From: Oscillospiraceae bacterium
GTDB lineage: Bacteria > Bacillota > Clostridia > Oscillospirales > CAG-272
Assembly: GCA_015064285.1 (NCBI GenBank)
Contig: SVSN01000016.1
Span: forward strand, 1 to 52,284
Length of the DNA: 52,284 bases
Direction: 5' to 3'
Part shown: positions 7,987-32,417 of the stretch, one piece after another
How positions within the stretch are numbered: position 1 is the stretch's first letter
Layout: the number at the start of each line of letters is the position of its first letter
Notes under the pieces: generated by a model
Told to the model about the DNA's origin: nothing
The model's database searches: none
Seen by the model: only the letters and a program-made list of their open reading frames with translations
Position numbers and translations under genes: made by a program

Positions 7987-9432
7987 TCACTTAGTGGGAA
8001 TTTCCAGAACAAGCACACTGCCGTGTCCGCCGAAGACCTGCCAGGTGCCGGGGGAGAGCAGACCGCGAAAAGCTTCCCGTTCTGCTTTGGCCAGGGCAGG
8101 ATTCGTATCTACGGATGTCATGAGATAGGGAGCAAGGGTGTTGAACTGAGCCTGTTCCGGGGTAAAAGCATGGACATTCACGAAAATATCGCCGGTGAAT
8201 ACAAGCCGGTGGGTTTCTTCCACCAGAATGACTTCGCCCGCTACATGCCCGCCTTTTCCTTCGTACACAGAAAAACAGAATGGCCCAACCGGTACAGTAA
8301 CCGGTTTTGACAGAACACTGTCAGCAAGTGCTGGGGCAGGGAACGGCAGGAAAGTACCGGTGTTGGGCGATGTATAGCCGGATATAATTTTACTGATCCG
8401 GACATAGGGTTCGTGAAGCGGATTTTCTTCCCGGACGGCTGCCAGACCGGCATTTTCCCGTCGGAAATTTTCCAGACAGATACGGCTGCCCATAACACAG
8501 TCAAAATCGTTTGCCAGACCGCAGTGATCCACATCGCCATGGGTCAGCAGCAGAATTTTCTCCCGGCTGTCGAAATCCGGAAACAGACTGCGGAGCAGAG
8601 TCAGGGTTTCCTCGCGATAACAGGCAAATCCACTGTCCACACAAATCAGCGGATGTCCGGCATTTCCATCGTCCAAAAAACAGAGATTGCTGCCGCAGGG
8701 TGGTTCGATCAGTGTAACGACAAGACCTGCCGCACCGGTATGCCGGGTTACACGGGGAAGAAAATGCTCGCCGCGGTACCGCCGGATACAATCTGCAAAT
8801 TTTCCGATATATTCAAAAGTTTTATACGGAGGACTGTTGCGTTCTTCCAGAAGCTGCATGACTTTGTTGGAATGGACGATCAGCTCACGGGTCTGACGAT
8901 CATCAAAATCCATTTTTCGGGCAATATCGTTTGCAAAATTCAGATAGAATACAGTATTGTCCAGCATTTTTTCACTTTTGCTGTATTCCAGAATCTGAAC
9001 CGGGCAAAGCAGAGCTGCCTGACGCATGAAATCGGATATGGCTTCGCTGTCATCCACAAACAACCCCATTTTGAAATCCTGATACGGTGTGCCGTTCTCC
9101 TGAGAGCTGATATAGGAGATATTGAAATGAAATCTGCTGATCAGTTCCAATACCGGACATAAAGCCCCCGGTTCATCCCGGAGCTGGAAGGAAATAAGCA
9201 TCACACTGCCTGCGGAATGGTTGTTCTGCAGGTATCCCAGGGCAGCCAGTTCATATTCTGCCTGACGCAGCAGCTCTTCTTCGCCTTCCACTTCCAGAAA
9301 CAGCATATGTGTATCTATGGCTTTGTTGTAGCTGACGCGTGTGATGTTCAGTCCAAGTCGGGTGAGACAGCGATCCGCCAGCAGAAATGCGCCCACCTGG
9401 TCCGGCATGGTGGTAGTGAATGTTTGTTTCAT
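7987..9432 (-). CDS. Tandem ACT-domain / metallo-beta-lactamase-fold hydrolase
   Basis: 481 aa. Residues about 1-80 and 85-160 look like two ACT modules; each has a (D)xxG(A) turn, DQVGAF and DEPGAL, followed by an amphipathic helix. About 100 linker residues follow, then an MBL hydrolase domain with THGDVDH (metal site), GGHVAGE, FTGD and a final GGHGS. ACT domains usually bind amino acids, so this is probably an allosterically regulated thioesterase or glyoxalase-II-like hydrolase (inference); the substrate is unknown. ATG 9432 is preceded by GAGGTG at 6 nt. The gene is monocistronic, with its own promoter. Confidence 0.8.
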   Translation of the reverse strand: MKQTFTTTMPDQVGAFLLADRCLTRLGLNITRVSYNKAIDTHMLFLEVEGEEELLRQAEYELAALGYLQNNHSAGSVMLISFQLRDEPGALCPVLELISRFHFNISYISSQENGTPYQDFKMGLFVDDSEAISDFMRQAALLCPVQILEYSKSEKMLDNTVFYLNFANDIARKMDFDDRQTRELIVHSNKVMQLLEERNSPPYKTFEYIGKFADCIRRYRGEHFLPRVTRHTGAAGLVVTLIEPPCGSNLCFLDDGNAGHPLICVDSGFACYREETLTLLRSLFPDFDSREKILLLTHGDVDHCGLANDFDCVMGSRICLENFRRENAGLAAVREENPLHEPYVRISKIISGYTSPNTGTFLPFPAPALADSVLSKPVTVPVGPFCFSVYEGKGGHVAGEVILVEETHRLVFTGDIFVNVHAFTPEQAQFNTLAPYLMTSVDTNPALAKAEREAFRGLLSPGTWQVFGGHGSVLVLEIPTK

Positions 9433-12416: not shown

Positions 12417-12667
12417 GAAGAATAGCCGATTGCAAAACTCAGAAAAAACGAAATCAAGCACTCGAAAACCGGCTACGGCGGGCAGGGTAGAGGCCCCTGA
12501 CCGCTCACTCCACTATTTCTCGGGTTTTGCAATCTCTATATATAGTGGCACATGGAATTGCAGTCACTATATCCAGCTAACCCATTCCAAAAGTTTTTGC
12601 GGAGCTTTTTTCAAAAAGCGACCGTTCCCCTTTTACTGGCGTTTTGCAATCGGCTAATAATGAAGAA
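12412..12667. repeat. 11-bp target-site duplication flanking the MITE
   Basis: ATAATGAAGAA occurs at 12412-12422 and again at 12657-12667, immediately outside the perfect terminal inverted repeats of the element between them. Confidence 0.85.
12423..12656. mobile_element. MITE-like element, 234 bp, perfect 16-bp terminal inverted repeats
   Basis: The left end TAGCCGATTGCAAAAC (12423-12438) is the exact reverse complement of the right end (12641-12656). The interior has no convincing gene. It carries a second GTTTTGCAAT copy, an inverted pair TATATAGTG/CACTATAT around a 20-nt loop, and a GCTTTT/AAAAGC hairpin. Flanking 11-bp direct repeats show transposition. Non-autonomous elements with 10-12 bp duplications are known from IS4/IS231-type transposons; that link is inference. 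No matching transposase gene is in the window. Confidence 0.88.
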
Positions 12668-12689
12668 AAAAAGGAATGAGGTGCTATGG

Positions 12690-14855
12690 ATGAAATCCCT
12701 GACAATACGCTCCTATACGAGCCAGGATGCCGCTGTCATTGCGGAATGGTTTACTGACGAACGGTCTATGCACCGGTGGTGTGCCGACTGTTTTGATACA
12801 TTTCCCCTGCCGCCTGAAATGCTGAACCGGTATTATGATAGTCACACGGGCGAAATATATCCCTTTATGGCATTGGACGGGGATAAAATGGTCGGGCATT
12901 TTTTCCTGAAATGCACGGATCGGGAGAACGTGCGGATCTGTTTTGTGGTGCTGGATCCGGCGTTCCGGGGACAGGGGTACGGCAAAGCCATTATGCAGGC
13001 TGCACTGGCATATGCCTTTGATACCCTGCAGGCCCGGACTGCTGCACTGGCGGTGTTTGACAACAATCCGGACGCATATCACTGCTATATTTCCGTAGGG
13101 TTCCGGGAAGAGACACCCACGCCGCCGCCTTCCTATACGGTCATGGGAGAAAAATGGACCTGCCGCAGCATGGAAATGTCAAGGATCGATTGGAGAAATC
13201 TGACAATGGATGTATATAAGGAATTTGCCGGACAGGAGAATGTGACCGTTGTCCCCTGCTGGAAGAATGCGGAAATGCTGCTCCTGCCCGATACAGATGA
13301 GGATACCTACACCTGGTACTGGCACGAACTGGATGGACACAGGTATGAAAGAATCAGCAGCAGCAACCGCGGAAACGGAAACCATACGGCGGTTTTCCGC
13401 AAAGATGGCATAACCTACACCTTATCCTACACGGCGTTTGAGCGTACCTGCCGCCTGATCCGGGATCCGGACACCGATCTTCCGTCACGCATCATTGCCT
13501 ATCCCAAGGTGCCGGTGCTGGTGACCCAGATGCGGCTGCTGTATGCCTGTGCGGACTGCGGCATGGCTTACCTGATCCGGATGGGCGACGGGCGTTTTGC
13601 GGTGATCGACTCCGGTATGGGCGAGCATGAGGAACCGGAACACCTGCTGGAACTGATGCAGGCACAGAACGTACGGGACGGAAAACCTGTGATCGCCGTA
13701 TGGTTCTTCACCCATCCCCACATTGACCACTACAACACCTTTGTGAACCTGATGGAACGGCACCGGGATGAAATCGTGCTGGAAAGCGTTGCGTACAACT
13801 GGCCTACCCGGGAGATGGCGAAGGGCTTTTCCGACCTGACCCGGTTTGATGCCCTGATGGAAACGCTGACAGAGACAAAGAAAATCACGCCCCGTGACGG
13901 CTGGACATTCATGTTCCCCGGCGTGCATTTCCACATTCTGTATACCTGTGAGGATCTGTATCCGGCACCTTTTGCCAACATCAACGACACCTCCATGGTT
14001 ATGCAGATGACTGTGGAGAATTCCGTGGACTATACCGTTCGCCGGGTACTGTGGATGGGGGATGCTTCCGCTGCCGCATCAGAGTATCTGGTAAAGAAGT
14101 ACGACAGGGAAGTGCTGGAATGCGAAATCATGCAGGTGGGGCATCACGGCTACTGGGGCGGTTCGGACGCACTGCACCGGATCGTGGATGCCGAAGTACT
14201 TCTGTGGCCCTGTCCGGATTTCTGGTATCAGGTGATCACGAAATGGGACTGCAACCGGTATCTGGTGGAATCCGAAAAGGTACACACCATTTATGTGGCC
14301 GGACAGCAGGAAGTGGTGCTGAACCTGGACGAATCCATAGAACCGGTGGATCCCTATCCGGAAACCGGCAGTCCTGTTCTGTATCAGGAAGATTTTTCGG
14401 ATACCAGTGTGTATCATAAAGCATGGTCGTCTGTTACCGGCGGACGTACCGGATACCGGGGCATGGGGATAGATATAGAACCGGGTGTGTGCCATCTGTC
14501 TGCCGGAGAAGCCTGGTCGGTACTGGAATGGGTACAGCCCGGACGGATGACCGACAGCTATGTACTTACTTTTAGGGCAAAGCGTACCGGCGGAGAAGGG
14601 CAGACCGCTATCTTCTGGAATCATCCCACGCCAACCGAATGGTCGGACGATGCCGTTCTCCCGCTGGATCTGCCGTCGGATCCCTGTACGGTGGAACTGA
14701 CCGCTGACGCATTGGCCGGCAAAGCGATATTGACCATAGACGGACAGCCGGTGCGGGAAATGGCATATATGCCCGCAGACAAGCACGGTCTGTACCTGCT
14801 TTTACAGAATGCAGAAATAGATGTGTATGAAATTACCGTAAAAGCAATCGGCTGA
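12690..14855 (+). CDS. GNAT acetyltransferase fused to metallo-beta-lactamase-fold domain
   Basis: 721 aa, three parts. Residues 1 to about 160 form a GNAT N-acetyltransferase with the acetyl-CoA motif RGQGYGKAI. The middle region, about 290-540, is an MBL-fold domain with the THPHIDHYN metal motif near residue 340, a WMGD aspartate and a VGHHG histidine. The C-terminal 130 residues look like a beta-sandwich of the LamG/carbohydrate-binding type. ATG 12690 is chosen because GAGGTG lies 6 nt upstream; the longer frame starts inside the MITE. There is no signal peptide, so it is cytoplasmic. The substrate is unknown. Confidence 0.8.
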   Translation: MKSLTIRSYTSQDAAVIAEWFTDERSMHRWCADCFDTFPLPPEMLNRYYDSHTGEIYPFMALDGDKMVGHFFLKCTDRENVRICFVVLDPAFRGQGYGKAIMQAALAYAFDTLQARTAALAVFDNNPDAYHCYISVGFREETPTPPPSYTVMGEKWTCRSMEMSRIDWRNLTMDVYKEFAGQENVTVVPCWKNAEMLLLPDTDEDTYTWYWHELDGHRYERISSSNRGNGNHTAVFRKDGITYTLSYTAFERTCRLIRDPDTDLPSRIIAYPKVPVLVTQMRLLYACADCGMAYLIRMGDGRFAVIDSGMGEHEEPEHLLELMQAQNVRDGKPVIAVWFFTHPHIDHYNTFVNLMERHRDEIVLESVAYNWPTREMAKGFSDLTRFDALMETLTETKKITPRDGWTFMFPGVHFHILYTCEDLYPAPFANINDTSMVMQMTVENSVDYTVRRVLWMGDASAAASEYLVKKYDREVLECEIMQVGHHGYWGGSDALHRIVDAEVLLWPCPDFWYQVITKWDCNRYLVESEKVHTIYVAGQQEVVLNLDESIEPVDPYPETGSPVLYQEDFSDTSVYHKAWSSVTGGRTGYRGMGIDIEPGVCHLSAGEAWSVLEWVQPGRMTDSYVLTFRAKRTGGEGQTAIFWNHPTPTEWSDDAVLPLDLPSDPCTVELTADALAGKAILTIDGQPVREMAYMPADKHGLYLLLQNAEIDVYEITVKAIG

Positions 14856-18835: not shown

Positions 18836-19654
18836 TCAGTACCGGTATCCGCTGTCAGTGGTAATTTCAATCGTGCATTCGGAGAGTTTCTTAGCCTTGA
18901 TAATTTTATGGGAGCTGGCCATTGTCAGGTCTACATTGTGCCATTCCCCGTCAATATATACCTTGTTCCAGGCGTGATATGCGTTCTGATAATATCCTTT
19001 TTCAATCGCGCAGGGGATTTCCTGGCTTCTGCACATAGCTGCGAACAGGGATGCGAAGTCGTAGCAGATCCCCTTCTTGGCGGAAAGAACATCAGACGTG
19101 TTGGGGACATACGTTTTGATAGTGCCGCTGGTGATGTTGGCAGCCAGATCGTAATCGTAAGACAGATTGGCAGCAACAAAATTATGTATGGCAAGTACCT
19201 TGGCGGTGGTATCTGTCAATCCTTTGCAGAGTTCTGCAGCCTTCTTGCCGACAGCATCATCCTTGGAGAAGGTGATCTCCTTGGTGCTGGCGAGATAGGG
19301 AGCAAGGCTGCTTTCCAGTGTAACGTTTACCGCCTTGGTGGCAATCTGCTTGTAGGAAGTGCCGCGGACATTCCGGAACAGGGTGATGGTATAGGATCCA
19401 TTGCCCTGTGTGAAGGTATAGGTAGACGTATCCCCCGGGGTATAGTCATAGTAGGTAACTTTTTTATTGAAGGTTACCCCCACTTTCATTCTGGCAGTAT
19501 CGCTGGTACCGCAGTATACGGAAAAATATCCTTCGGAAGCATGGTCAGTATTGATAACAATGGTATCTGCTGCGGAAACAGAAACAGGAAAAATGCAGGC
19601 GCATACAAAAATAAAACACAAAAAAACGCCCAAAAAACGGGTACACCGCTTCAT
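18836..19654 (-). CDS. Secreted transglutaminase-like protease, c-di-GMP riboswitch controlled
   Basis: 272 aa. A signal peptide covers residues 1 to about 29 (hydrophobic core FLGVFLCFIFVCACIF, cleavage near VSA-AD). The mature C-terminal half is a transglutaminase-like domain with the Cys in KGICYDF, His in AYHAWN and Asp in HNVDLT, the usual Cys-His-Asp triad. The function is probably proteolysis or remodelling of extracellular or wall proteins. ATG 19654 has AAAGGAG 7 nt upstream, directly after the riboswitch. Clostridial transglutaminases of this type are known to lie behind c-di-GMP-I riboswitches, so expression should follow c-di-GMP levels. Confidence 0.9.
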   Translation of the reverse strand: MKRCTRFLGVFLCFIFVCACIFPVSVSAADTIVINTDHASEGYFSVYCGTSDTARMKVGVTFNKKVTYYDYTPGDTSTYTFTQGNGSYTITLFRNVRGTSYKQIATKAVNVTLESSLAPYLASTKEITFSKDDAVGKKAAELCKGLTDTTAKVLAIHNFVAANLSYDYDLAANITSGTIKTYVPNTSDVLSAKKGICYDFASLFAAMCRSQEIPCAIEKGYYQNAYHAWNKVYIDGEWHNVDLTMASSHKIIKAKKLSECTIEITTDSGYRY

Positions 19655-19656
19655 AA

Positions 19657-19752
19657 GTGACTCCTTTCGGTAACTGGCTGCCATGCTCCCTGAAGGAGGT
19701 TAGGCCCTGTAGCTTTGCGTCACAGCCTTTCGACTGCTTTGCCATTGTCGTT
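19657..19752 (-). promoter_or_regulatory. c-di-GMP-I (GEMM) riboswitch
   Basis: On the minus strand the leader reads GGCAAAGC, then CAGTC-GAAA-GGCTG (a GNRA tetraloop hairpin), then GTGACGCAAAGCTAC, GGGCCTAACC (the tetraloop-receptor side), and the late helix with TGGCAGCCAGTTACCG. These are the conserved blocks of the c-di-GMP class I aptamer. The ribosome binding site of the transglutaminase gene (AAAGGAG) follows within 2-3 nt of the last block. No intrinsic terminator stem with a U-run lies between aptamer and start, so control is probably at translation initiation (inference). Confidence 0.9.
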
Positions 19753-19900
19753 TGAGTGCTGGGCGGCAATACGCTGGTCCGGCGCTCTTGATCAATGTAT
19801 AATATTAAATTGTCTTTGTCCCTGCGGACGGGGAAACAGATTTCAACCTGCTGCGGCCAAAACTGTCATGTGCCTCCACAATATCTATGGAAGCATATAT
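19753..19900 (-). promoter_or_regulatory. Upstream half of the long transglutaminase leader
   Basis: About 140 nt of transcribed leader precede the aptamer. It has a G/C-rich stretch near 19813-19860 with local inverted repeats (CCCTGCGGACGGGG on the plus strand), and AT-rich TAATATTATAC near 19800 that could hold a second promoter. No gene is seen. Its role is unknown. Confidence 0.4.
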
Positions 19901-19929
19901 ATTATAATACATTATCTTGCAGTTGTCAA
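19901..19929 (-). promoter_or_regulatory. Promoter of the riboswitch-transglutaminase transcript
   Basis: Minus-strand TTGACA (19929-19924) and TATAAT (19906-19901), spacer 17 bp. It predicts a leader of about 240 nt before ATG 19654. Confidence 0.8.
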
Positions 19930-20170: not shown

Positions 20171-22747
20171 TCACACGGAGGTTTCCGCAGGCTGTACCGG
20201 GAAAGAAGCCGGATCGGGTTCCGCTTTGGTCTGGGCGGCAGTGGAAGCACCACGGATCTCCACGCTGTTGTTCTTTACCATTTCCAGGAAGATCAGCACA
20301 AGTTTGGGGTCAAACTGCTTGCCGGCTTCGGACTGCATCAGCGCAATGGCTTCCTCCTTCCCCAGAGGCTTGTGATAGCTTCTTTCGGAAGTGATGGCAT
20401 CAAATGCATCCGCAATACACAGGATCCGTCCCATGATCGGGATATCTTCTCCCTTCAGATGATTGGGATAACCGGAACCGTCGTAATGCTCGTGGTGGGA
20501 AGCCACCGTGGGGATCACGTATTCCAGAGAGGGGAGATGGTGGATGATGTTGACCGCACTTTCCACATGGCCCTTCATGATTTCGAATTCAGCCGGGGTG
20601 AGTTTGCTGGGTTTGTTGAGAATATCTTCCCGGATGCAGATTTTACCGATATCATGAAGAAGGGATGCTTCTTTTACGATTTCAACAAGATCATTTTCCA
20701 TGCCGGTGCTTTTGGCAAGTTCAACGGCATAGTACGCAACATTTTCCGAATGCTGGTACGTGTAGGGATCTTTTGTAGCGATAGCGGCGGTGAGTGCCTG
20801 GATCGTGCTGGCATTCTCGCTGTATCCGCTGGCATACTTGAACTGCTGGGCTTCCTGAGGATAAATCTCGGAAGAATAGATCTGTACAGCATTTTTCCCG
20901 GAACGCTTGACGGTATAGACAGCCGTTTCCGCATTCTGGAATAGCTCCTTGGCACTGGAAGCCATATAGGGAGCCGCACAGATACCGGCACTGACCGTCA
21001 GCGGCTTGGGAATCTGTTCTCTGTGATGATCGCTGATTTTTCCGATTTCAGACGCCAGATTTTCCGCCAGCATTTTTGCCGAATGGATATCATAGCCGGG
21101 GAGAATAACCGCGAATTCCTTACCGCCGATACGTGCTGCGGTGCTGGATTCGTTCAGGTTGGAGATCAGGATACCGGCAACACGCTGCAGCGCCAGATCG
21201 CCCTCCTGTGCGCCGTACAGCTGGTTGTACCGCTTGAAATCATCAATATTGATGATACACAGAGCCAGAGCGGATTCCTGATACTTTTTGAACTCGCTTT
21301 CCAGAAACTCGAAGAAATATTTTCTGTTGGCAAGTCCCGTAAGCTTGTCTTTTCTGGCGTCATCAATCGCACGTTCATAGGCGGTCGCTTCATAAATGGG
21401 CGTGGCGGACAGAGAACATACGGTATGAATCTGCTGGATGGAACTCAGCGGATAGGGGATGTTGTCTTTGTTGCAGGGAAGCACGAGAATCCCCACCAGA
21501 CCCTTTTCGCAAATCAGCGGGATAAAATAGTCCGCATTGAGTACATGCAGATCCTTCTTTTCCTTTTCCCACATACTGCGGTACACAGTGGTACGGCTGA
21601 ATTCATGATGACTCACAGGATTGTTGTGGGATGCGAAATAGGTGACCAGAGGATGATCTGATTTCAGATAGAAATTCTTTTCTTCCAGGGGATTGGTGGT
21701 GTGTTCCACACGGAAATCACCGTCAATCAGCTGCGTGAAAATCAGGATCCGTTCGATGTGGGTGAGATCCTGAATAATATCGGTCAGATTCTGCAGAATA
21801 TCCTGCACATTCAGCATATGGGAGTTCACTTCCGCAAACTGATCGATTTTTGCCTGTTGGATTTTTTCATTCCGGATAAAGAAATAATTGAACAGCAGCG
21901 TGATACCGGTATACAGCAGCAGAATATAGAGAATCAGGATGACCGCTACCGCCAGCAGGGAAATGGCCTGATTCATGGAAAAAGCATCCGTCAGGAAATG
22001 CTGAAGCGGAATGACAAATCTGTTGCCGGTAATAAAACCGATCACCATGGCAAACAGGAAATAATTTGCTTTGGTGAACAGAACCGTCATCTTGAAGAGC
22101 CGTTTGTTGTACAGCGCATAGAACATGAACAGTACATTGATCGGCCCGGACATGATATCCAGCGGCACCCCGGAGAAGAACGGCAGTGTGGCGGCAACGT
22201 GACCGATCACCAGAATGAGCAGTCCGTTGATGATGGGACGAAGCTGCTGGAAGGCGATGTGATTCCCTTTGCAGTGTCTGTAAATGACATGGATCATCCG
22301 GAACAGACAGGGAAGGATGCATGCCAGCAGTATGTAGATGTGCCAGGTGTAGTTGTAAATGAACTGTACGCTTCCGTTGGATTCCACCACAAGGGGATCC
22401 GGGATAAAGAGCCCTGTGAAGTAGTTGAAGACAAACAGAAGGAAATGGAAGATTGCCCAGAAATACCGGCTGCGGGCATTTTTTTCTTCCAGAAATGCCA
22501 GGGTAAAGTTATAGTAGCCGGCTACCAGCATGGTCATGCCCAGTACGGAAACATGGTGCCAGAGGATGACCGATGGCCATAGCTGTATACGCATGGCGAA
22601 GGAACCGCCGGCCCACAGGATCATGATCACCAGCAGACTCATGAATGCGTGGATAACCTTGCTGGACTTTTTCATGGAAAGAAAAGTCACGAACAGGAAA
22701 ACATAGCAGAAAAGCGCTACGATAGAAAACCAACTATATCCAGTCAT
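20171..22747 (-). CDS. Membrane sensor with degenerate GGDEF and HD-GYP domains
   Basis: 858 aa. The first about 280 residues hold seven to eight hydrophobic segments, like a 7TM sensor module. A GAF-like region follows (about 300-440). The diguanylate-cyclase fold has its signature as GGKEF near residue 540 rather than GGDEF, so synthesis is probably lost. The HD-GYP domain is intact: HDIGK near 698 and HHEHYDGSGYP near 750. The expected activity is c-di-GMP hydrolysis at the inner face of the membrane. AGGAGG lies 8 nt before the ATG. The gene overlaps the end of the GH3 gene by 14 nt and is last in the operon. Confidence 0.9.
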   Translation of the reverse strand: MTGYSWFSIVALFCYVFLFVTFLSMKKSSKVIHAFMSLLVIMILWAGGSFAMRIQLWPSVILWHHVSVLGMTMLVAGYYNFTLAFLEEKNARSRYFWAIFHFLLFVFNYFTGLFIPDPLVVESNGSVQFIYNYTWHIYILLACILPCLFRMIHVIYRHCKGNHIAFQQLRPIINGLLILVIGHVAATLPFFSGVPLDIMSGPINVLFMFYALYNKRLFKMTVLFTKANYFLFAMVIGFITGNRFVIPLQHFLTDAFSMNQAISLLAVAVILILYILLLYTGITLLFNYFFIRNEKIQQAKIDQFAEVNSHMLNVQDILQNLTDIIQDLTHIERILIFTQLIDGDFRVEHTTNPLEEKNFYLKSDHPLVTYFASHNNPVSHHEFSRTTVYRSMWEKEKKDLHVLNADYFIPLICEKGLVGILVLPCNKDNIPYPLSSIQQIHTVCSLSATPIYEATAYERAIDDARKDKLTGLANRKYFFEFLESEFKKYQESALALCIINIDDFKRYNQLYGAQEGDLALQRVAGILISNLNESSTAARIGGKEFAVILPGYDIHSAKMLAENLASEIGKISDHHREQIPKPLTVSAGICAAPYMASSAKELFQNAETAVYTVKRSGKNAVQIYSSEIYPQEAQQFKYASGYSENASTIQALTAAIATKDPYTYQHSENVAYYAVELAKSTGMENDLVEIVKEASLLHDIGKICIREDILNKPSKLTPAEFEIMKGHVESAVNIIHHLPSLEYVIPTVASHHEHYDGSGYPNHLKGEDIPIMGRILCIADAFDAITSERSYHKPLGKEEAIALMQSEAGKQFDPKLVLIFLEMVKNNSVEIRGASTAAQTKAEPDPASFPVQPAETSV

Positions 22748-24383
22748 TGAGTCCGCCTCCTATCTCCAGGGTATTGGATTGGTGACATACGAGCAGATCG
22801 TTGATTTCGCAGGCATCGGGATTGATTTTCCGGATGGATGTACCGAACTTCTTTTCAAACGCTGCAAATGTACCGCACTTCATCATTGTGATTTTCAGCG
22901 GATCGATCCCCAGGATTTTTTTCAGATCCTCATAATCCTGATCCAGATAGCGGAAATAAATACCCAGCTGATCCTGCAGGATACGGATACTGACGGCACT
23001 GTTGATGAGATGGTCGTGCTGCAATTCTACATAAAGGTGGAGATAGGGCCGGTTGTTTTCGGAGTATTCCTTCTTGGCGGTCCACATCTCAATAGGCAGA
23101 CGGGAAAGCTCGATGGCCTGGTTGATCGATTTTTCTGTAATCCGTGTAAAGCCTGCGATATCGATGATTCGGGGATCCCGGTCGATATACTGGAAGCGGG
23201 GAATGGCGTTGTTTTCAAGCTTGCTGCCGATCCCGGTACACTGGAAAATATCACCGGCGCGGTACCGGGCAAATGCACCGCCTTTGAAAACTGTCAGAAC
23301 CAGCTCGTAAATCCCGCCGGGAACCACTTCATTCCAGAGAACCGTACGGGGCTGATAATCCGGATTGTCAATGTTTTTATTCATTTCATCCTCAGGAATG
23401 AATTCATAGAAACAGGCATCCGGGAAGAAATATACCCCCTCGCGGCTCCAGGTTTCACAGCCGATGCAGGTGGGTTCTGTGCCGGCAAAGATTTCCATAG
23501 GCGCGATCCCCCACATATGTTCCAGATCTTCTTTGTAGCATCTGTTGTCTGTACCGGCACACATAAAGCCTTTGAGCTGGAACAGATCCTTTGGGAGAAG
23601 TTCTCTGTTTTCCATATGGCAGCGGCGCTTGGCCATCATGTAGCGGAACATCATGGTGGGAGAAATGCCGCTGATTTTATCTTTCAGACTGCTGCTGCGC
23701 TTGGAGGAACTGCGCATGGATGTGATGCTCTGGCTGACATAATACAGAACACTGCCGAGCCCGAAAAAGTATTCGATGCCTTTTTTCATACCGAGCTTGA
23801 AGCCCTGAATGTTGCGTTCGGCGAAAGTCATATTCACGGCATCCTTGACGGAGGGCAGGAATTCCACATCAATCTCATCTTTGAAAAGAAGGGGAAGAAG
23901 CCCCGTCATATACGGAAGCGGTGCCAGCGCATACAGCATATGGTCGGTAACGCTGATGTCAAATTCGAATTTTTTCCGGCTGGTGGACAGGATCATACAA
24001 CTGATCAGATTGTGTTTGAAGGTATCCAGCATCCCCTTGGTGTAGGGTGCTGTCTTGATGGGATGCACACCGCCTTCCCAGGTGGTTTTTATCCATAAAA
24101 CAGGTTCGCCGGGAAGCGCCTTGGTTTGTTTGGAAAGCAGTGTGGGAGCGTAATCTTCATAGGTGGTCAGCGGCACCATGGCACGGAATTCATCCATAGT
24201 GGTGGGCTTTTTCCCTTTCAGGATGCTCTGCCCGAGACTGCTGGACGCCCAGATCTCCATCTGTTCCAGAAGAAGCCGCTTCTGAATGTCCATGAATTCG
24301 TCCATGGTCAGCGTCAGAAAACCACAGTATTCTTCCCAGATTTCTTCTTTGGAATATTCGTGAAGTTTTTCCTGGAATCTCAT
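22734..24383 (-). CDS. GH3-family acyl-adenylate/amido-synthetase-like enzyme
   Basis: 549 aa, resembling plant GH3 enzymes, which adenylate a carboxylic acid with ATP and join it to an amino acid. Visible marks are TWEGGVHPIKTAPYT at the usual phosphate-loop place (not the standard SSGTT), FAGTEPTCIG in the position of the Y-x-S-E motif, FYEFIPEDE, and RYRAGDIF, which matches the YRxGD adenylate motif. Bacterial GH3 homologues have no well-established role. The degenerate first motif leaves room for a changed reaction. AGGAGG precedes the ATG. The start overlaps the methyltransferase stop by 4 nt, and the end overlaps the HD-GYP gene. Confidence 0.82.
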   Translation of the reverse strand: MRFQEKLHEYSKEEIWEEYCGFLTLTMDEFMDIQKRLLLEQMEIWASSSLGQSILKGKKPTTMDEFRAMVPLTTYEDYAPTLLSKQTKALPGEPVLWIKTTWEGGVHPIKTAPYTKGMLDTFKHNLISCMILSTSRKKFEFDISVTDHMLYALAPLPYMTGLLPLLFKDEIDVEFLPSVKDAVNMTFAERNIQGFKLGMKKGIEYFFGLGSVLYYVSQSITSMRSSSKRSSSLKDKISGISPTMMFRYMMAKRRCHMENRELLPKDLFQLKGFMCAGTDNRCYKEDLEHMWGIAPMEIFAGTEPTCIGCETWSREGVYFFPDACFYEFIPEDEMNKNIDNPDYQPRTVLWNEVVPGGIYELVLTVFKGGAFARYRAGDIFQCTGIGSKLENNAIPRFQYIDRDPRIIDIAGFTRITEKSINQAIELSRLPIEMWTAKKEYSENNRPYLHLYVELQHDHLINSAVSIRILQDQLGIYFRYLDQDYEDLKKILGIDPLKITMMKCGTFAAFEKKFGTSIRKINPDACEINDLLVCHQSNTLEIGGGLNDWI

Positions 24384-24976
24384 TTGCTCCCCTCCTTTCT
24401 GTTGGATCGTGAGAATGTTTTGCACCCTGCTCGTATACTGGCGGGTGTGGGTATGATAAAGGGAACGTGTTTTTTGTATTCGTGATAGTCAACGAATGTT
24501 CTGGGAAAGGTGACTGCATCCTGAAAGCAGACATAGGCAAAATTCAGGAGAGAAAAGATCATGCCGCAGAACAGCAGAGAGGACGACGGCATGGCAGCCA
24601 GACCGAGAAACAGGTACATGGCAAAAAAGCAGAGAACACCTGGATGTCTGCAGAACGCATAGACCCCTTTGTCATATACACACCGTTTTTCCTCCGGTAC
24701 TATATATGTTTCATCAAAGGGAAGGGCAAAGAACAGGCAGTACAGCAATGCCGCGAAGGAGAGAATGCTGAGACAGATGTAAACTGTGTCGGCGATCCCA
24801 CCGAAAGCAGCCAGGCGCAGGGCATCCAGAAGCGTGAGAACGGTGGAGATGCAGATCAGCACCAGCCCTGCAAAAAAGAATTTCTCCAGCCATCTGTTCT
24901 TTACGGTAATGCTGTTGATATCGTACAGGAGAAACAGGACAAACCCTGTACATCCGAGCAGGAGCGGCAGCATCAT
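24380..24976 (-). CDS. Small integral-membrane methyltransferase-like protein (ICMT/PEMT family)
   Basis: 198 aa with four to five transmembrane segments. The motif CRHPGVLCFF and the end FVDYHEYKKHVPFIIPTP are the S-adenosylmethionine-binding signature shared by isoprenylcysteine carboxyl methyltransferases and phospholipid methyltransferases (RHPxY...EE/YxxYxxxVP). It may methylate a carboxyl or amine group on a membrane-bound or lipidic substrate. The stop overlaps the GH3 start by 4 nt, which implies coupled translation with an enzyme that activates carboxylic acids. The upstream gene ends 37 nt away. The exact substrate is unknown. Confidence 0.72.
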   Translation of the reverse strand: MMLPLLLGCTGFVLFLLYDINSITVKNRWLEKFFFAGLVLICISTVLTLLDALRLAAFGGIADTVYICLSILSFAALLYCLFFALPFDETYIVPEEKRCVYDKGVYAFCRHPGVLCFFAMYLFLGLAAMPSSSLLFCGMIFSLLNFAYVCFQDAVTFPRTFVDYHEYKKHVPFIIPTPASIRAGCKTFSRSNRKEGSK

Positions 24977-25013
24977 ATGGTAGCCTCGCTAAAAACCGCT
25001 GTATGAGAGAGAG

Positions 25014-27335
25014 TCATGATTTGGAGGCCTCTCCTTTCATAAAAGGTTCGTAAATAGCGTATTGATTGCGTCCCCGTTCCTTGGCTTCGTAGAGAGCACA
25101 GTCCGCATGGCCGAGAAGACTGTCGTAGTCACTGCCGTCCTGCGGGAACATGGCGGCGCCGATGGTTACGGTGACTTTCATTTCCAGACTGCCGTTTCTG
25201 TAAGGATACTGGAATGTCTTGATCAGCTTGTCCAGTCTTTCCACAAGAACGGTCTTTTCGATGGAAGGGGCAAAGACAACGAATTCGTCGCCTCCGTAAC
25301 GGGCGATCACATCACTGTGGCGGAAAACGCCCATAATCTGTTTGGCAACATAACAGAGAACGTCATCCCCCAGCATGTGCCCGTATGTATCGTTGAAGGA
25401 CTTGAAGTAATCTATGTCCACGAACAGAAGGGCAGCGGTGTCCAGCTTTTTCTGTTCCAGAATACTGTTGGCGTGCTGTTCGAAATGTTCACGGTTGAAC
25501 ACACCGGTAAGAGGATCGCGGGTGGCTTTTTCTTTCCAGCGGTTGACTTCGTTTTTCCAGCCGGACATATCCACCAGTGCACCGCTGATAATGCTGTCCG
25601 TAATCGGTTCGTCACGATGCATTCGTACCTGAAGCCATTCATATCTGCCGCCGAGCATATAGAATCGCAGGGTGTTTTCGGCCCAACCGGTTTCCCGCTG
25701 ACAGCGTTCCAGAAGACGGAAGAAATCCTTGCGGTCGTTTTCATGTACAAGGTCCGTGGTGCGGAACAGGGCAAGGGCATTCTCGAAGGTTGTCTTGCCG
25801 GCAAGAACAGGTGAAAAAATATCCGAGAATTCGATGGTGTCTTCTTTGGGATTGTAGGAGAAAAGAATCGTGTTCTTGGGCTGCGGCGGCGGGGTGGAGC
25901 CAATGGAAGTTGTCTTCCGGGCAGCATCCTGCGTGTTTTTCGCATCGGATTCCATGTATTTCAGCACACGGTCATCGTAAATCTCAGATTCCAGTTTTTC
26001 AAGAGGCATAGGTTTGAAGAAATAGAACCCCTGCACGAAATCACAGGCGGCCTGATGAAGATACTGCAGCTGTCCGCTGTTGTCAACCCCCACAGCGGTA
26101 GTACGGATCTGCAGCTGTGCGGCAAGCTTCAGGACATTTTCCAGCAGATATCGTCCGTGCCGGTTGTTGTTGTCGCCGGAGAAAAAGCTGCGGTCAAGGT
26201 TGATGGTGTCTATATCAAGCGTTCCCAGCATCTGCAGAGAGCAGGCTCCGACACCGAATTTGTCCACAGCACAACGGAAACCGAAATAATGCAGCTTGTC
26301 GATCAGCACTTTGGCATGCGCCAGATCTTCCAGCAGCAGATCTTCCCGCAGGTCAAATTCGATCAGCGCAGGAGAAAGATTGTACTGGGAACAGATGCTG
26401 AAGCAGGTGTCTGCAAAGTTTTCAAGCTTTATGGATGTGCGGGAGAGATTGACAGAGATGGGACAGAGCTCGCGTTTGTGCTGCTGCCAGCGGGAGAGGG
26501 TACGGCACACTTCGTTGAACACAAACATGTCAATCTGTGAGGCGATATGGTACCGGTCTGCCTGTTCCAGGAACATATCGGGAGAATGGATGCCGTCACG
26601 GGAAGTGCGCCAGCGGATCAGTGCTTCAGCCCCCACAACACGATGGTCTGCAATACGGATTTTCGGCTGGAAATAAACAATAAAATCCCCTGTCCGCAGC
26701 GCTTTGTTCACAGACGATACGGTTTTCAGATGATTGGCTGTTTTTTCCAGATGTTCGGAATCGTAGAAATAATAACGCCGGTCGGAAGGCACATTTGAAA
26801 CGGCGAATATGGCTTTTTCAAGCATCTGCTCCGGGGTTTCGCTGTTGGTATCCGGAAGGTAAATCCCGAATACGGCATTCAGAGGAAACACAGGCGTTTC
26901 TTCATTAAAGGCATTGATGGAAGCAGAGATGGTGACAAGCTTGGCGAGAATTTCTTCCTGCTTGCGGTTTCGGAGCAGAAAGCAGAAGGTGTCTTTGTCA
27001 ATCCGGGCAGGCAGTTCATCCCCGCCCAGTTTGGAAGCAAGTACGGACTGGATGTACCGGAGCAGCCGGTGGTAATCTTCCGGATTGTACAGCGCAATAA
27101 TGTCCCGGATATCGGATATATGCATGCAGATGACTGCGTATGATCTGTACTTTTGGGTGAGAAGAGTATGGCTGCGCTTCAGAAACCCGAGTTTTGTTGC
27201 TCCTCCGGAAACAGGATCGGTATACACTGTGACATTCAGCCTGTACAGCCGGCTGTTGGCGATCACCGCAGCAATAAGACAGACGCCTATGACAATGGCG
27301 GCGATTATCAATAAAGACACATAAGCGGATTCCAT
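25014..27335 (-). CDS. GGDEF(degenerate)-EAL(degenerate)-PAS-like-GGDEF protein
   Basis: 773 aa. One transmembrane helix (residues about 5-27) is followed by a degenerate GGDEF domain (IDKDTF at 112-117). Next comes an EAL domain with EAL near 236 but DKFG for DDFG, INLDRS for the usual K-x-D context and AVGVD for AEGVE, so it is likely a binding domain rather than a phosphodiesterase. A PAS-like region follows, and then an intact GGDEF (YGGDEF near 681-685). Net activity is probably c-di-GMP synthesis. ATG 27335 has AAAGGAGG 10 nt upstream. It is the first gene of the operon with the methyltransferase, GH3 and HD-GYP genes. Confidence 0.9.
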   Translation of the reverse strand: MESAYVSLLIIAAIVIGVCLIAAVIANSRLYRLNVTVYTDPVSGGATKLGFLKRSHTLLTQKYRSYAVICMHISDIRDIIALYNPEDYHRLLRYIQSVLASKLGGDELPARIDKDTFCFLLRNRKQEEILAKLVTISASINAFNEETPVFPLNAVFGIYLPDTNSETPEQMLEKAIFAVSNVPSDRRYYFYDSEHLEKTANHLKTVSSVNKALRTGDFIVYFQPKIRIADHRVVGAEALIRWRTSRDGIHSPDMFLEQADRYHIASQIDMFVFNEVCRTLSRWQQHKRELCPISVNLSRTSIKLENFADTCFSICSQYNLSPALIEFDLREDLLLEDLAHAKVLIDKLHYFGFRCAVDKFGVGACSLQMLGTLDIDTINLDRSFFSGDNNNRHGRYLLENVLKLAAQLQIRTTAVGVDNSGQLQYLHQAACDFVQGFYFFKPMPLEKLESEIYDDRVLKYMESDAKNTQDAARKTTSIGSTPPPQPKNTILFSYNPKEDTIEFSDIFSPVLAGKTTFENALALFRTTDLVHENDRKDFFRLLERCQRETGWAENTLRFYMLGGRYEWLQVRMHRDEPITDSIISGALVDMSGWKNEVNRWKEKATRDPLTGVFNREHFEQHANSILEQKKLDTAALLFVDIDYFKSFNDTYGHMLGDDVLCYVAKQIMGVFRHSDVIARYGGDEFVVFAPSIEKTVLVERLDKLIKTFQYPYRNGSLEMKVTVTIGAAMFPQDGSDYDSLLGHADCALYEAKERGRNQYAIYEPFMKGEASKS

Positions 27336-27423
27336 ATTCTGATTCCCTCCTTTCGGCGTAGCAGGAAAACTCAGTGAGATGAGGGGGGATAACAAAAGCT
27401 CCCTGTATAGTTATATACATTAT

Positions 27424-27452
27424 ATTTTATCACAAAAGGTCTTTTAATGCAA
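27424..27452 (-). promoter_or_regulatory. Promoter of the c-di-GMP/GH3 operon
   Basis: Minus-strand TTGCAT (27452-27447) and TAAAAT (27429-27424) with a 17-bp spacer, about 90 bp before the first start codon. No c-di-GMP aptamer blocks are seen in this leader. Confidence 0.55.
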
Positions 27453-29093: not shown

Positions 29094-29122
29094 TTGACAA
29101 ACCCTTGCGGAACAGGTATAAT
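29094..29122 (+). promoter_or_regulatory. Promoter of the beta-helix wall protein
   Basis: TTGACA and TATAAT with a 17-bp spacer, 37 bp upstream of the ATG. Confidence 0.8.
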
Positions 29123-29159: not shown

Positions 29160-32100
29160 ATGCTGAAACGGTTACTGCTGACCGGTGCGGCTGTACTGCT
29201 GACCGCCGGGACAATCGCTGCCGCCGGGACGGACGGAACTTTCCGCTATTCCGCTTCCGATGTACAAGGGGAGGAAGGATGGTATGCGCTGTGTGCTCCG
29301 GAAGACTCCGATCTGTGGGAGTATATGCCCGTGTATGCAGGCGGAAGCTGGTGGGCCGGGGAGAACAATTTTCAGCTTGGCATGCTGAATGCCCATACCA
29401 TACACCCGGGGCTGTATTATGACGCGGTTCTGGCATGGGAAGCGCCGGAAAGCGGAGAGATCACCATATCTGTCCCCGGCGGTGTTTCGCTGAATGATTC
29501 CTCTGCTGCGAACAGACCCGGTGACGGTGTGGAATTCGGGATTTTTTACCAGGACGACAGCGGTGTTGCTCCCGTTTATCCGCAGGACGGAATGGGGTAT
29601 ATTGCCAACGGAGAAACCATGACAATTCCCGACCAGACCATAACGGTGCAGGCGGGCGGTCTTGTCCTGTTCCGGATCGGCTGCGGCCCGGAAAACTACA
29701 TGGACTACGACGGTACTGCCATGATTCCTTTGATCACATACGGTTCTGTGACAGATTCTCCGGCGGTAACCGGTACGTTTCTGCCACTGCCGCCGGGAGA
29801 AAAATACCCTGTGACTACCGGCTCCACAGCAGATTTTATTACGGACGGCGTTGAAACCATGTCCGCTGCCGAATTTCTGGTGCTGATGGCAGAACAGAAT
29901 GGGGTTTACACCGTTCCGGACGGAACATATACCCTGACAGACAGACTGGTGATTGACAAATCCTACACCGGAGCTATTCTGGATATGTCCGGCGTGAAAC
30001 TGCTGAATACCACCATGACGGTGGAGGCGTCCGATATTGCCATCGACAGCTTGTGTTTGGTTGAAAACGATGATGCTGCCAGAGATACGGTTCTGGATAT
30101 TTCCGGTACCTGTGTGACCCTGTACAACTGCCACATTGCCGGCGGTATCCTGTCCTATGGCAGCGGACTGACGCTGGATCACTGTACTGTCACCGGCACC
30201 GGTACGGAATTTGGCGGTACCGATGTGCTGCTGACCCGCTGCAGCTTGTCGGATACCATTACATGGTATGTGCAGAACGGAACTTTGTACGGGAATGTTT
30301 TTACGGACGGGTCTGTCCTGCAGGTGAAAGACAGCAGCGATATTTCCATCGTAAACAACATTTTCCCCTATGATGGAACCGTTATCATACAGAATACGCC
30401 CTATGCCTGTATCACCGGCAATACATACCCAAACGGTGAGGTCGATGTCATTGCCGCAGACTTCTGGCAGTGTGACACGCTGGAAGGAAAATGGGGTGTG
30501 AATCTGTATGGGCACAGGGAATACCGGGAAGATGTGACCGGTGCGGAAATGGAGCGGATCCCGGACAACCATACAGAACGGTTTGCGGAAAGCGTGGTGC
30601 GGGATAAGATATACTGTCAGAAATCCTGGCTTGCGCCGGCTGTGTTTATAGCCTCCCGGACAGACAGCCACAGCGAAGCGGTGATCCCCTGCGGTGTGTA
30701 CGAAAATGTACCCGGTATTTCTTTTGTGGAGGACGAACAGTTTACGCTGGCAGCATACGGTGCGCTGTTCCGGTTTGAAAACTATACTTCTTCCGCTATT
30801 ACCATGGAAGGGGGAGAAGGTCTGTTTGTTCTGGGGCTGACCATCGACCATATGGAAGTCCAGAATGCCCAGGGTACCGTGCAGTCCGTATCGGGAAATA
30901 CCGTACTCTGGAAGCCGGACGACGGATACCGTTTTGACATAACCGATCCCACCCGCTTTGCCCCGAACGGTATGTCCGAGGGATTCCGGGCCGGCGAAAA
31001 CCTGCCGTATGCGGATTACACCATCACAAACCGTACCAAAAATAACGACGGCACCTTTACGCTGGAATTTGCCAACGATCTGCAGCCCGGCGACAAGCTG
31101 ACCTTCCGGGGACTGGCAGCCCATGTTGTCAACATCAGCCATAATGGGTTTACAGCATTTGAAGATATTACCGTGTGGGGCGGCAGTGGTTTTGCTTTTT
31201 CCGGCTGGGAAGGGAATGATGTGATTGTCCTGAGCCGCTGCCTGGTAAGACCCGGGCCGAAACCGGACGGCGCTTCGGCAGAACGGATGCTGACTACCTG
31301 CGATGCCACCCACTTTTCCAATATGCGTACCGGCCCCATTCTGGAAGACTGCCATTTTTCCGATATGACGGACGACGGTACCAATATCAACGGTCACTAT
31401 ACCCTGACATCCGGCTATAACAGGGAAACGCGTACCTTTACCTGCCGGGATACCTTTACCGTGACCACAGGAACCTACAGTTCCCAGCTGTCCAATATTC
31501 TGCCCGGGGATACACTGCGGATCCTGACAACAGAGGGACAGCTTGTGGGCGATACCACCGCGGTGTCCGACGGCTCAGGCAACCGGGTGACGATTGCAGA
31601 TGATCTGGATATACCTGCAGATACGGTGATTCTGCAGAATCTGTCCGCCTGCGGCAATGGATTCCGGATCGACAACTGTGTGGTGGAACGGATCCGCAGC
31701 CGTGGACTTCTGATCAAAACAGGCGGTTCCATCACCAACTGTACCATACAGGATGTACGTATGGCTGGGATCCTTGTCAAACCGGAATCTCTGGACTGGC
31801 CGGAATTCGGTTTCAGCAGCGATCTGGTGATCCGCAACAATCTGATCGTCGGTACCGGTTATGCTTCCTCTACGGATAATCTGTATGCTTCCATCTGTAT
31901 CGAAGGGGATACCCGGAACGGTGATGACACATCCTTCCAGCTTCACCGTGACATTCAGATTCTGCATAACACAATTGAGGAACGCAAGAATAATGTGGCT
32001 CTGAAGATCAGTCATGCGCAGGATGTCACTGTGGCAGGCAATACTTTCCTGAACCGGCACAGCTCCGTGTATGCAAAACCGGAAGAAGATCCCGGTGCGC

Positions 32101-32417
32101 CCATTCTGGTTCTGAACAGCACCAATGTGGAACTGCAGGACAACACATGGCCTCAGAACGCCAAGCCCGCGAAAATACAGGGTTCCGCCGTGAACGTGTG
32201 GGGGATAGATCTCGGCGTGGAAAATAGTCCCCCCGAAACGGCTGCTCCGGAGACAAACCCGCCTGAAACGGTACCAACAGAAACCGCATCGGAACCCGGA
32301 ACCGAACCGGAACCTGCGGCAGAAAACGGTTTTCCCATCGTCCCGGCGGTGATGGCAGCGGTTGTACTGGCAGGCGGAATGGCAGCGGTCATGATACTGC
32401 GGAAGCGGAAAAAGTAA
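29160..32417 (+). CDS. Large secreted parallel beta-helix protein with C-terminal membrane anchor
   Basis: 1085 aa. A signal peptide (residues 1 to about 22, hydrophobic core LLLTGAAVLLTAGTIAAAG) is followed by an N-terminal domain of about 200 residues. Then come long runs of short strands rich in Asn, Thr and Gly that suggest a right-handed beta-helix of the pectate-lyase type (NCHIAGGIL, ISIVNNIF and VIRNNLIVG are typical rungs). A Pro-Glu-Thr-rich spacer (about 1020-1055) precedes a C-terminal hydrophobic helix and RKRKK tail. It is thus displayed on the cell surface. It may bind or cleave polysaccharide; no catalytic residues could be assigned. AAAGGAGA precedes the ATG. It stands alone with its own promoter. 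Confidence 0.85.
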   Translation: MLKRLLLTGAAVLLTAGTIAAAGTDGTFRYSASDVQGEEGWYALCAPEDSDLWEYMPVYAGGSWWAGENNFQLGMLNAHTIHPGLYYDAVLAWEAPESGEITISVPGGVSLNDSSAANRPGDGVEFGIFYQDDSGVAPVYPQDGMGYIANGETMTIPDQTITVQAGGLVLFRIGCGPENYMDYDGTAMIPLITYGSVTDSPAVTGTFLPLPPGEKYPVTTGSTADFITDGVETMSAAEFLVLMAEQNGVYTVPDGTYTLTDRLVIDKSYTGAILDMSGVKLLNTTMTVEASDIAIDSLCLVENDDAARDTVLDISGTCVTLYNCHIAGGILSYGSGLTLDHCTVTGTGTEFGGTDVLLTRCSLSDTITWYVQNGTLYGNVFTDGSVLQVKDSSDISIVNNIFPYDGTVIIQNTPYACITGNTYPNGEVDVIAADFWQCDTLEGKWGVNLYGHREYREDVTGAEMERIPDNHTERFAESVVRDKIYCQKSWLAPAVFIASRTDSHSEAVIPCGVYENVPGISFVEDEQFTLAAYGALFRFENYTSSAITMEGGEGLFVLGLTIDHMEVQNAQGTVQSVSGNTVLWKPDDGYRFDITDPTRFAPNGMSEGFRAGENLPYADYTITNRTKNNDGTFTLEFANDLQPGDKLTFRGLAAHVVNISHNGFTAFEDITVWGGSGFAFSGWEGNDVIVLSRCLVRPGPKPDGASAERMLTTCDATHFSNMRTGPILEDCHFSDMTDDGTNINGHYTLTSGYNRETRTFTCRDTFTVTTGTYSSQLSNILPGDTLRILTTEGQLVGDTTAVSDGSGNRVTIADDLDIPADTVILQNLSACGNGFRIDNCVVERIRSRGLLIKTGGSITNCTIQDVRMAGILVKPESLDWPEFGFSSDLVIRNNLIVGTGYASSTDNLYASICIEGDTRNGDDTSFQLHRDIQILHNTIEERKNNVALKISHAQDVTVAGNTFLNRHSSVYAKPEEDPGAPILVLNSTNVELQDNTWPQNAKPAKIQGSAVNVWGIDLGVENSPPETAAPETNPPETVPTETASEPGTEPEPAAENGFPIVPAVMAAVVLAGGMAAVMILRKRKK

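Follow-up and report, generated by a model that had tools for sequence, protein, structure and literature searches.

The 52,284-nucleotide stretch from an Oscillospiraceae bacterium analyzed here (GenBank assembly GCA_015064285.1, contig SVSN01000016.1, positions 1 to 52,284; referred to as the window) is one entire contig of a 3.2-Mb genome that is 73% complete. It carries a cassette of three genes, which code for a membrane methyltransferase-like protein (MT), a GH3-fold enzyme and a membrane HD-GYP sensor, with the gene of a probable diguanylate cyclase added in front. The three genes of the cassette travel together across distant Bacillota, and the GH3 subfamily concerned was not seen without them.

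Four open reading frames (ORFs) are located on the minus strand at 20171-27335, and both their coordinates and their Pfam domains agree with the gene identities and the operon of the original prediction for this DNA. The first gene (25014..27335, minus strand, as are the three that follow) encodes a GGDEF-like/EAL/GGDEF protein of 773 amino acids (aa; EAL 4.4e-56, GGDEF 7.5e-53 in two stretches) and is separated by a gap of 37 nucleotides (nt) from the gene of the ICMT/PEMT-superfamily MT (24380..24976; 198 aa), the first gene of the cassette. The second (22734..24383) encodes the GH3-fold enzyme (549 aa), which belongs to a subfamily of its own and for which GH3_M (1.3e-12) and the GH3 N-terminal domain (3.8e-6) were over the cut-off and GH3_C (0.0028) below it. 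The third (20171..22747) encodes a membrane protein of 858 aa, composed of a seven-transmembrane (7TM) region, a GAF-like region, a GGDEF domain with the sequence GGKEF and an HD-GYP domain (N-terminal HisKA_7TM 2.4e-7, GGDEF 7.7e-38, HD_5 2.3e-40). As had been claimed, MT and GH3 genes overlap by 4 nt and GH3 and HD-GYP genes by 14 nt. A sigma-70-like promoter, TTAAAA-17-TATAAT, found by consensus scan alone, is positioned ahead of the four-gene operon (27419..27447, minus strand).

The conservation of this arrangement was assessed by a scan of GTDB genome contigs, in which an alignment of cassette GH3s served as query and 204 related stretches were obtained. The best 80 of these were kept and, joined by the window and by four regions fetched in addition, make up a set of 85 loci, whose GH3 sequences form 73 clusters at 90% and 35 clusters at 70% identity; 34 of the 85 are contained in A2. 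Judged by their record titles, the 80 scan loci stem from isolates and assemblies of Oscillospiraceae, Lachnospiraceae, Faecalicoccus, Massilimicrobiota, Acetobacterium, Peptococcaceae and Christensenellaceae. In all 80 the third gene is found 3' of the GH3 gene on the same strand, overlapping it in 66, at a distance of up to 60 nt in 13 and of 109 nt in one; since third-gene starts were taken at the earliest possible codon of each ORF, the number of 66 overlaps is an upper bound. The MT gene precedes the GH3 gene in 79 of the 80 loci, the exception, L092, having only 98 nt of upstream DNA, and the two genes overlap in 34 loci, are up to 30 nt apart in 41, and are separated by 40, 40, 144 and 252 nt in the other four. 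Over the entire set the third gene is present in 85/85 loci (in some cut at the contig end) and the MT gene in 83/83 testable ones. The order MT, GH3, third gene thus recurs far beyond chance, in all of the 85 loci whose DNA extends far enough. In L055 and L060, the HD-GYP-type gene 3' of the GH3 gene is broken into two ORFs.

Genome samples gave the same picture. A family search in an order sample of 295 genomes detected a GH3 domain in 12, four of which, besides the window, have a GH3 protein 47-50% identical to that of the window and the same kinds of neighbours. In a phylum sample (398 genomes) and a class sample (391 genomes), a GH3 profile matched 22 genomes each with bimodal scores, full-length cassette GH3s reaching at least 412 bits and other GH3s staying below 80. 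The subfamily is found in 13 genomes of the phylum and 7 of the class sample (18 distinct), which with the four of the order sample makes 22 genomes. In these the third gene adjoins in 22/22 and the MT gene in 21/21 testable cases, the DNA of G272 starting inside the GH3 gene. At 40 other GH3 loci, some of which are the same gene twice, neither an MT nor a third gene is present within flanks of about 1.5 kb, and two genomes (G816 and G904) each carry both cassette-type and other GH3s. The idea that GH3 proteins in general are tied to cyclic diguanylate (c-di-GMP) was rejected on these grounds. The survey of gene neighbourhoods proposed in the original prediction therefore has a twofold outcome: the gene order is present in many further genomes, and the cassette subfamily was never seen without its partners where the DNA allowed this to be judged, whereas GH3s in general lack them.

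Patristic distances over 69 loci correlate between GH3 and HD-GYP trees with r 0.87, and between the MT tree and these two with 0.60 and 0.67, values that partly reflect shared species history. Genes outside the core are mostly unrelated from locus to locus. In a set of 98 relatives, including 24 other members of the genus, the GH3 query gave matches to two genomes only, that of the window and, at a weak level, a second one. Thus, the cassette is patchy in its distribution. A cassette GH3 occurs in 0/24 of the other same-genus genomes sampled (G001-G024), and it would be worthwhile to trace whether the entire unit was gained or lost inside a genus. Carriage by mobile elements was also considered and dropped, as a tblastn search with the GH3 protein gave no match in plasmids or phages.

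Of the four genes originally grouped together, MT, GH3 and third gene hold up as a conserved unit. The GGDEF-EAL-GGDEF gene is an accessory that directly precedes the MT gene in 15/85 loci (in two of which a contig edge leaves it incomplete). The GH3s of these loci are 67-85% identical to that of the window, although L033 and L077 (67%) lack the gene, and the ten that are represented in the GH3 tree cluster together. A four-gene unit was therefore rejected, the additional gene being limited to close relatives. The domain assignment of its product was borne out by Pfam and calls for one correction. EAL phosphodiesterases are characterized by the residues EAL, DDFG, K.D and AEG.E. In the window protein EAL is kept, but DKFG stands for DDFG, NLD for K.D and AVGVD for AEGVE; the domain is less eroded in L029, L030, L032 and L081, where DDFG is kept. 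The C-terminal GGDEF is intact in the window and in 13 of 14 clustered relatives, the fourteenth having a gap. This protein is probably a diguanylate cyclase with an eroded EAL domain.

The third protein, described before as GGDEF/HD-GYP, does have the HD-GYP domain; the 7TM membrane region has to be added to the description, and its GGDEF domain is mostly degenerate. In the window the motifs HDIGK and HHEHYDGSGYP are intact. The HD-GYP motifs are kept in 81/84 alignment rows (N replaces D in one of these; the other three are gaps), and GG[DE]EF is intact in 1/82 rows with letters at this place. A GAF-like region was recognized by eye at about residues 300-455, where Pfam gives no hit. By its motifs the protein is a probable c-di-GMP phosphodiesterase. 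With the GGDEF domain of the first protein intact and its EAL domain eroded, the window operon therefore encodes a likely cyclase together with a likely phosphodiesterase. Among the deep members of the cassette family, six were listed, and GGDEF or GGEEF is intact in five of them (L128-L132); in L132 the HD-GYP motifs are altered. In L131 (8488-10467, plus strand; G363, a single-contig genome), the third gene codes for 659 aa in which GGDEF is intact and the HD domain is absent, so that this cassette may produce rather than degrade c-di-GMP. Because the deep members vary in GGDEF and HD-GYP, the constant part of the third protein is a 7TM-GAF sensor joined to a c-di-GMP domain; most sampled lineages look set on c-di-GMP breakdown.

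By sequence family and by fold, the second protein of the cassette belongs to GH3. Motif I, (S/T)SGT(S/T), is rewritten: the window has TTWEGG instead of SSGTT, with the T, W, E and last G each present in at least 97% of the 85 GH3s. The tally of motif I variants covers the 25 commonest. Four deep members (L108, L109, L110, L112) have TSGK or TSGR; hhalign puts motif I at a slightly different place. Motif II (GTE) and motif III (RYRxGD) are both present in 85/85. The C-terminal lysine, in most cases within NQxK, is found in 15/15 rows of other GH3s and falls into a gap in the window protein; in 14 cassette rows there are 11 gaps, one Leu and two Lys, the latter two being one protein, that of the deepest member, G361. 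Over the 85 sequences, 125 positions are conserved at 97% or more. GH3 family and fold are thus as predicted, but with the nucleotide site altered, the proposed activation of carboxylic acids cannot be transferred directly. A GH3 fold without its usual adenylation residues, yet highly conserved, poses a clean biochemical problem.

A hint at the substrate comes from a second accessory neighbour. DegV proteins are FakB-type fatty-acid carriers. A DegV/FakB-like gene directly precedes the MT gene in 7/85 loci, which fall into three distinct parts of the GH3 tree. The seven genes are those of L017 (10589-11464, minus strand) and, on the plus strand, L019 (6845-7696), L047 (91-966), L048 (7614-8468), L049 (39-950), L076 (7426-8424) and L078 (7504-8424); Pfam agrees in the five that were tested. 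Six other loci have no gene at all upstream of the MT gene. With 34 DegV genes in 11 cassette genomes, about 0.09 chance neighbours are expected over 69 loci, which gives P ~1e-4 for three events in a test that was picked after the genes had been seen and that assumes one gene per kb and the 11-genome baseline. A FakA-like gene is present in 12/13 cassette genomes checked, the genome without one (G201) being 47% complete. The DegV genes beside the cassette together with the FakA-like genes therefore point to a fatty-acyl substrate.

From the gene linkage, which is observed, we infer the following chemistry. The best explanation, put forward tentatively and at somewhat less than even confidence, is that an acyl-modifying pair of genes tightly overlapping a single membrane sensor-enzyme constitutes a make-and-sense module for one lipid-like product that feeds into c-di-GMP. 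The GH3 protein would couple a small amine or an amino acid to an acyl chain, the likeliest being a fatty acid. The ICMT/PEMT-like MT, integral to the membrane, would then methylate this conjugate, for example to a carboxyl methyl ester, yielding a neutral, membrane-permeable lipid. The 7TM-GAF protein would detect this lipid, or its accumulation in the membrane, and adjust its own HD-GYP phosphodiesterase activity accordingly. In the window, the neighbouring GGDEF protein would supply the c-di-GMP, and a riboswitch-controlled transglutaminase gene may be one readout. The confidences attached to this and to the following readings are not mutually exclusive.

The main rival, which has a minor though appreciable chance of being right, holds that the product is destined for the envelope of the producing cell, as a membrane lipid or a modified fatty acid, and that c-di-GMP is no more than the regulator: the HD-GYP protein would match c-di-GMP to the state of the membrane, c-di-GMP would determine the timing of lipid synthesis, and no signal would be exported. 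It would agree with the hydropathy of MT and third-gene sensor, both of which look integral to the membrane, and with the precedent of OlsH, which belongs to a membrane lipid pathway. A further argument comes from Parasporobacterium paucivorans (L067), where a c-di-GMP-I riboswitch (8265-8349, plus strand) lies a short way ahead of the MT start (8419) and has behind it a hairpin-like segment and a T-run, recognized by eye; in this species c-di-GMP probably controls the cassette. However, among the 85 sources L067 is alone in having a riboswitch directly before the MT gene, and an Rfam scan of 13 further loci found none there. The riboswitch was therefore rejected as a general control of the cassette. 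The model R1 comprises 8 pairs and, built from six sites, finds the same six again. In L054, two tandem c-di-GMP-I-like riboswitches (2325-2413 and 2558-2651, plus strand) are located about 6 kb upstream of the cassette. Also against an envelope lipid, the core has no other conserved neighbour for lipid synthesis, and an invariant dedicated sensor-enzyme would be unusual for a housekeeping lipid pathway. The original prediction considered it possible that the c-di-GMP level controls the product; the L067 riboswitch suggests this for one species. The reverse direction, a product acting on c-di-GMP through a membrane sensor, would fit the invariant part of the cassette better.

A further reading, which is compatible with the others and which we regard as unlikely, takes the membrane protein not for a methyltransferase but for a steroid 5-alpha-reductase-like enzyme, with a reduced acyl compound as product. 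The MT of the window alone gives nothing over the Pfam cut-off (ICMT 0.012), and a Foldseek search with it returned nothing at E <0.001. It has the membrane fold and the RHP motif of ICMT/PEMT proteins. A Glu-Glu pair after the last long helix is a further ICMT/PEMT motif; it is EE in the aligned ICMT/PEMT consensus and QD or ED among the MT variants listed. With hhalign, the cassette MT scored 65-96% against eight three-row draws of ICMT/PEMT sequences and 38% against DUF1295 (3 rows); the 19 ICMT/PEMT rows represent 17 distinct proteins (22 loci supplied, three without an ORF), and some draws contain the same protein twice. The PEMT cut-off is reached by the cassette MTs of G440 and G363 and, barely, of G374 and G356. 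Steroid 5-alpha-reductase/DUF1295 proteins carry an NADPH site, NYxGE, after RHP. It appears as RHPNYFGE in 3/3 DUF1295 rows and is missing from the MT alignment, in which RHPG is followed by other residues. The scores and the missing site weaken the reductase reading, and the MT appears to group with ICMT/PEMT.

A bolder form of the make-and-sense module seems rather unlikely to us: a new class of lipid signalling in Gram-positive bacteria, in which the GH3 protein would have given up adenylation with ATP and would take a ready-activated acyl group, such as an acyl phosphate on FakB/DegV, the MT would cap the conjugate by methyl esterification and the receptor would be the 7TM-HD-GYP protein. 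In many Clostridia, the trio would then link c-di-GMP to cell density or to fatty-acid status. Doubtful to a greater degree is that the cassette handles an acid from outside, supplied by host, plant or neighbour, which GH3 and MT would modify, in the way that plant GH3 enzymes conjugate auxin, and the sensor report, as a detoxification or quenching circuit instead of self-signalling. Plant GH3s act on hormonal acids, many loci are from gut or rumen assemblies, and the distribution is patchy and accessory. According to parts of PMC10146087, FakAB activates exogenous fatty acids. On the other hand, assemblies labelled groundwater or sediment contain the cassette as well (L079, L087), and no transporter is conserved beside it. 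Least probable is a GH3 protein that has ceased to be a synthetase and regulates the phosphodiesterase as a partner binding nucleotide or acyl groups, with an MT modifying the sensor or its lipid surroundings as in chemotaxis receptor methylation: motif I rewritten in most members, the C-terminal lysine confined to one cassette protein and the kept motif II Glu and RYRxGD, owing to which nucleotide may still bind, would suit this role, but the 125 conserved positions are more typical of a working active site and the four deep members keep TSG in motif I.

Downstream of the operon and outside the cassette, the window contains a c-di-GMP-I riboswitch (19666..19753, minus strand; Rfam RF01051, 80.6 bits, E 2.3e-14). 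Behind it lies the gene of a transglutaminase-like protein (18836..19654, minus strand), whose start at 19654 was picked after GGAG (Transglut_core 3.2e-20, obtained with a longer ORF that extends to 19684). The same layout of riboswitch and transglutaminase-like gene recurs in L021 (13430-13514, plus strand), and this gene is possibly an output of c-di-GMP. About 150 nt upstream of the riboswitch, a consensus scan found a perfect TTGACA-17-TATAAT promoter-like site (19901-19929, minus strand). On the plus strand, positions 29160-32417 encode a beta-helix protein of 1085 aa with a C-terminal hydrophobic stretch seen by eye and a perfect promoter-like site ahead (29094-29122), and positions 12552-14855 form a single ORF with GNAT acetyltransferase and metallo-beta-lactamase-type domains.

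Among known systems, the make-and-sense module would resemble the RpfF/RpfR circuit of the Burkholderia diffusible signal factor (BDSF), found in Burkholderia and relatives. RpfF is a crotonase-fold enzyme, RpfR has a PAS-GGDEF-EAL architecture, and their genes are neighbours. In this circuit, as described in parts of PMC8846402, a fatty-acid signal acts on the c-di-GMP phosphodiesterase RpfR. The Bacillota cassette consists of GH3, ICMT-like MT and 7TM-HD-GYP proteins, no shared signal-making or sensing domain was seen, and the Pfam hits of the four operon proteins include no crotonase-fold domain of the RpfF kind. It would thus be a Gram-positive analogue, not a homologue, of this route from fatty-acid signal to c-di-GMP. 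In the Phc gene set of Ralstonia we know of no GH3 and no c-di-GMP enzyme. The cassette as read here shares with it a methyltransferase and a fatty-acid-type signal: portions of PMC8578825 describe that the methyltransferase PhcB makes a fatty-acid methyl ester signal, the sensor being, in difference to the cassette, the histidine kinase PhcS. The likeness to FakA/FakB lies in the DegV genes beside the cassette on three branches, although DegV is an accessory of 7/85 loci. With plant GH3.6, GH3.11/JAR1 and GH3.12, the cassette GH3 shares 16-18% identity in the alignment; it differs from them by the altered motif I and the loss of the C-terminal lysine in most members, and from other bacterial GH3s by a two-residue insertion (GG) before motif III.

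A bacterial GH3 precedent is OlsH, which in the available portions of PMC12493201 uses fatty acids to make N-acyl ornithine and is encoded beside an N-methyltransferase gene. The same portions, which do not mention the cassette, note N-acyl amino acids from gut Clostridia and give more than 7500 OlsH matches, almost 90% of them in Bacteroidota and the rest mainly in Pseudomonadota and Planctomycetes. The OlsH/OlsG/OlsI ornithine-lipid operon of Singulisphaera has in common with the cassette a GH3 gene beside a methyltransferase gene. In contrast to the TTWEGG of the cassette, OlsH keeps TSGTT in motif I, where Ser115 is needed, and the operon as described there comprises the N-methyltransferase OlsG and an alpha/beta-hydrolase and no c-di-GMP gene. 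The earlier statement that no system of this make-up has been described was upheld, as none turned up in the open-licence PMC literature judged by title and abstract start, and papers mentioning both GH3 and HD-GYP were unrelated by the same measure. The trio of MT, GH3 and c-di-GMP enzyme may constitute a hitherto undescribed route for producing and sensing a signal derived from fatty acids and, as a tightly conserved unit in cultured gut and environmental Clostridia, would provide a testable Firmicutes candidate for a system that ties acyl chemistry to a dedicated membrane c-di-GMP enzyme.
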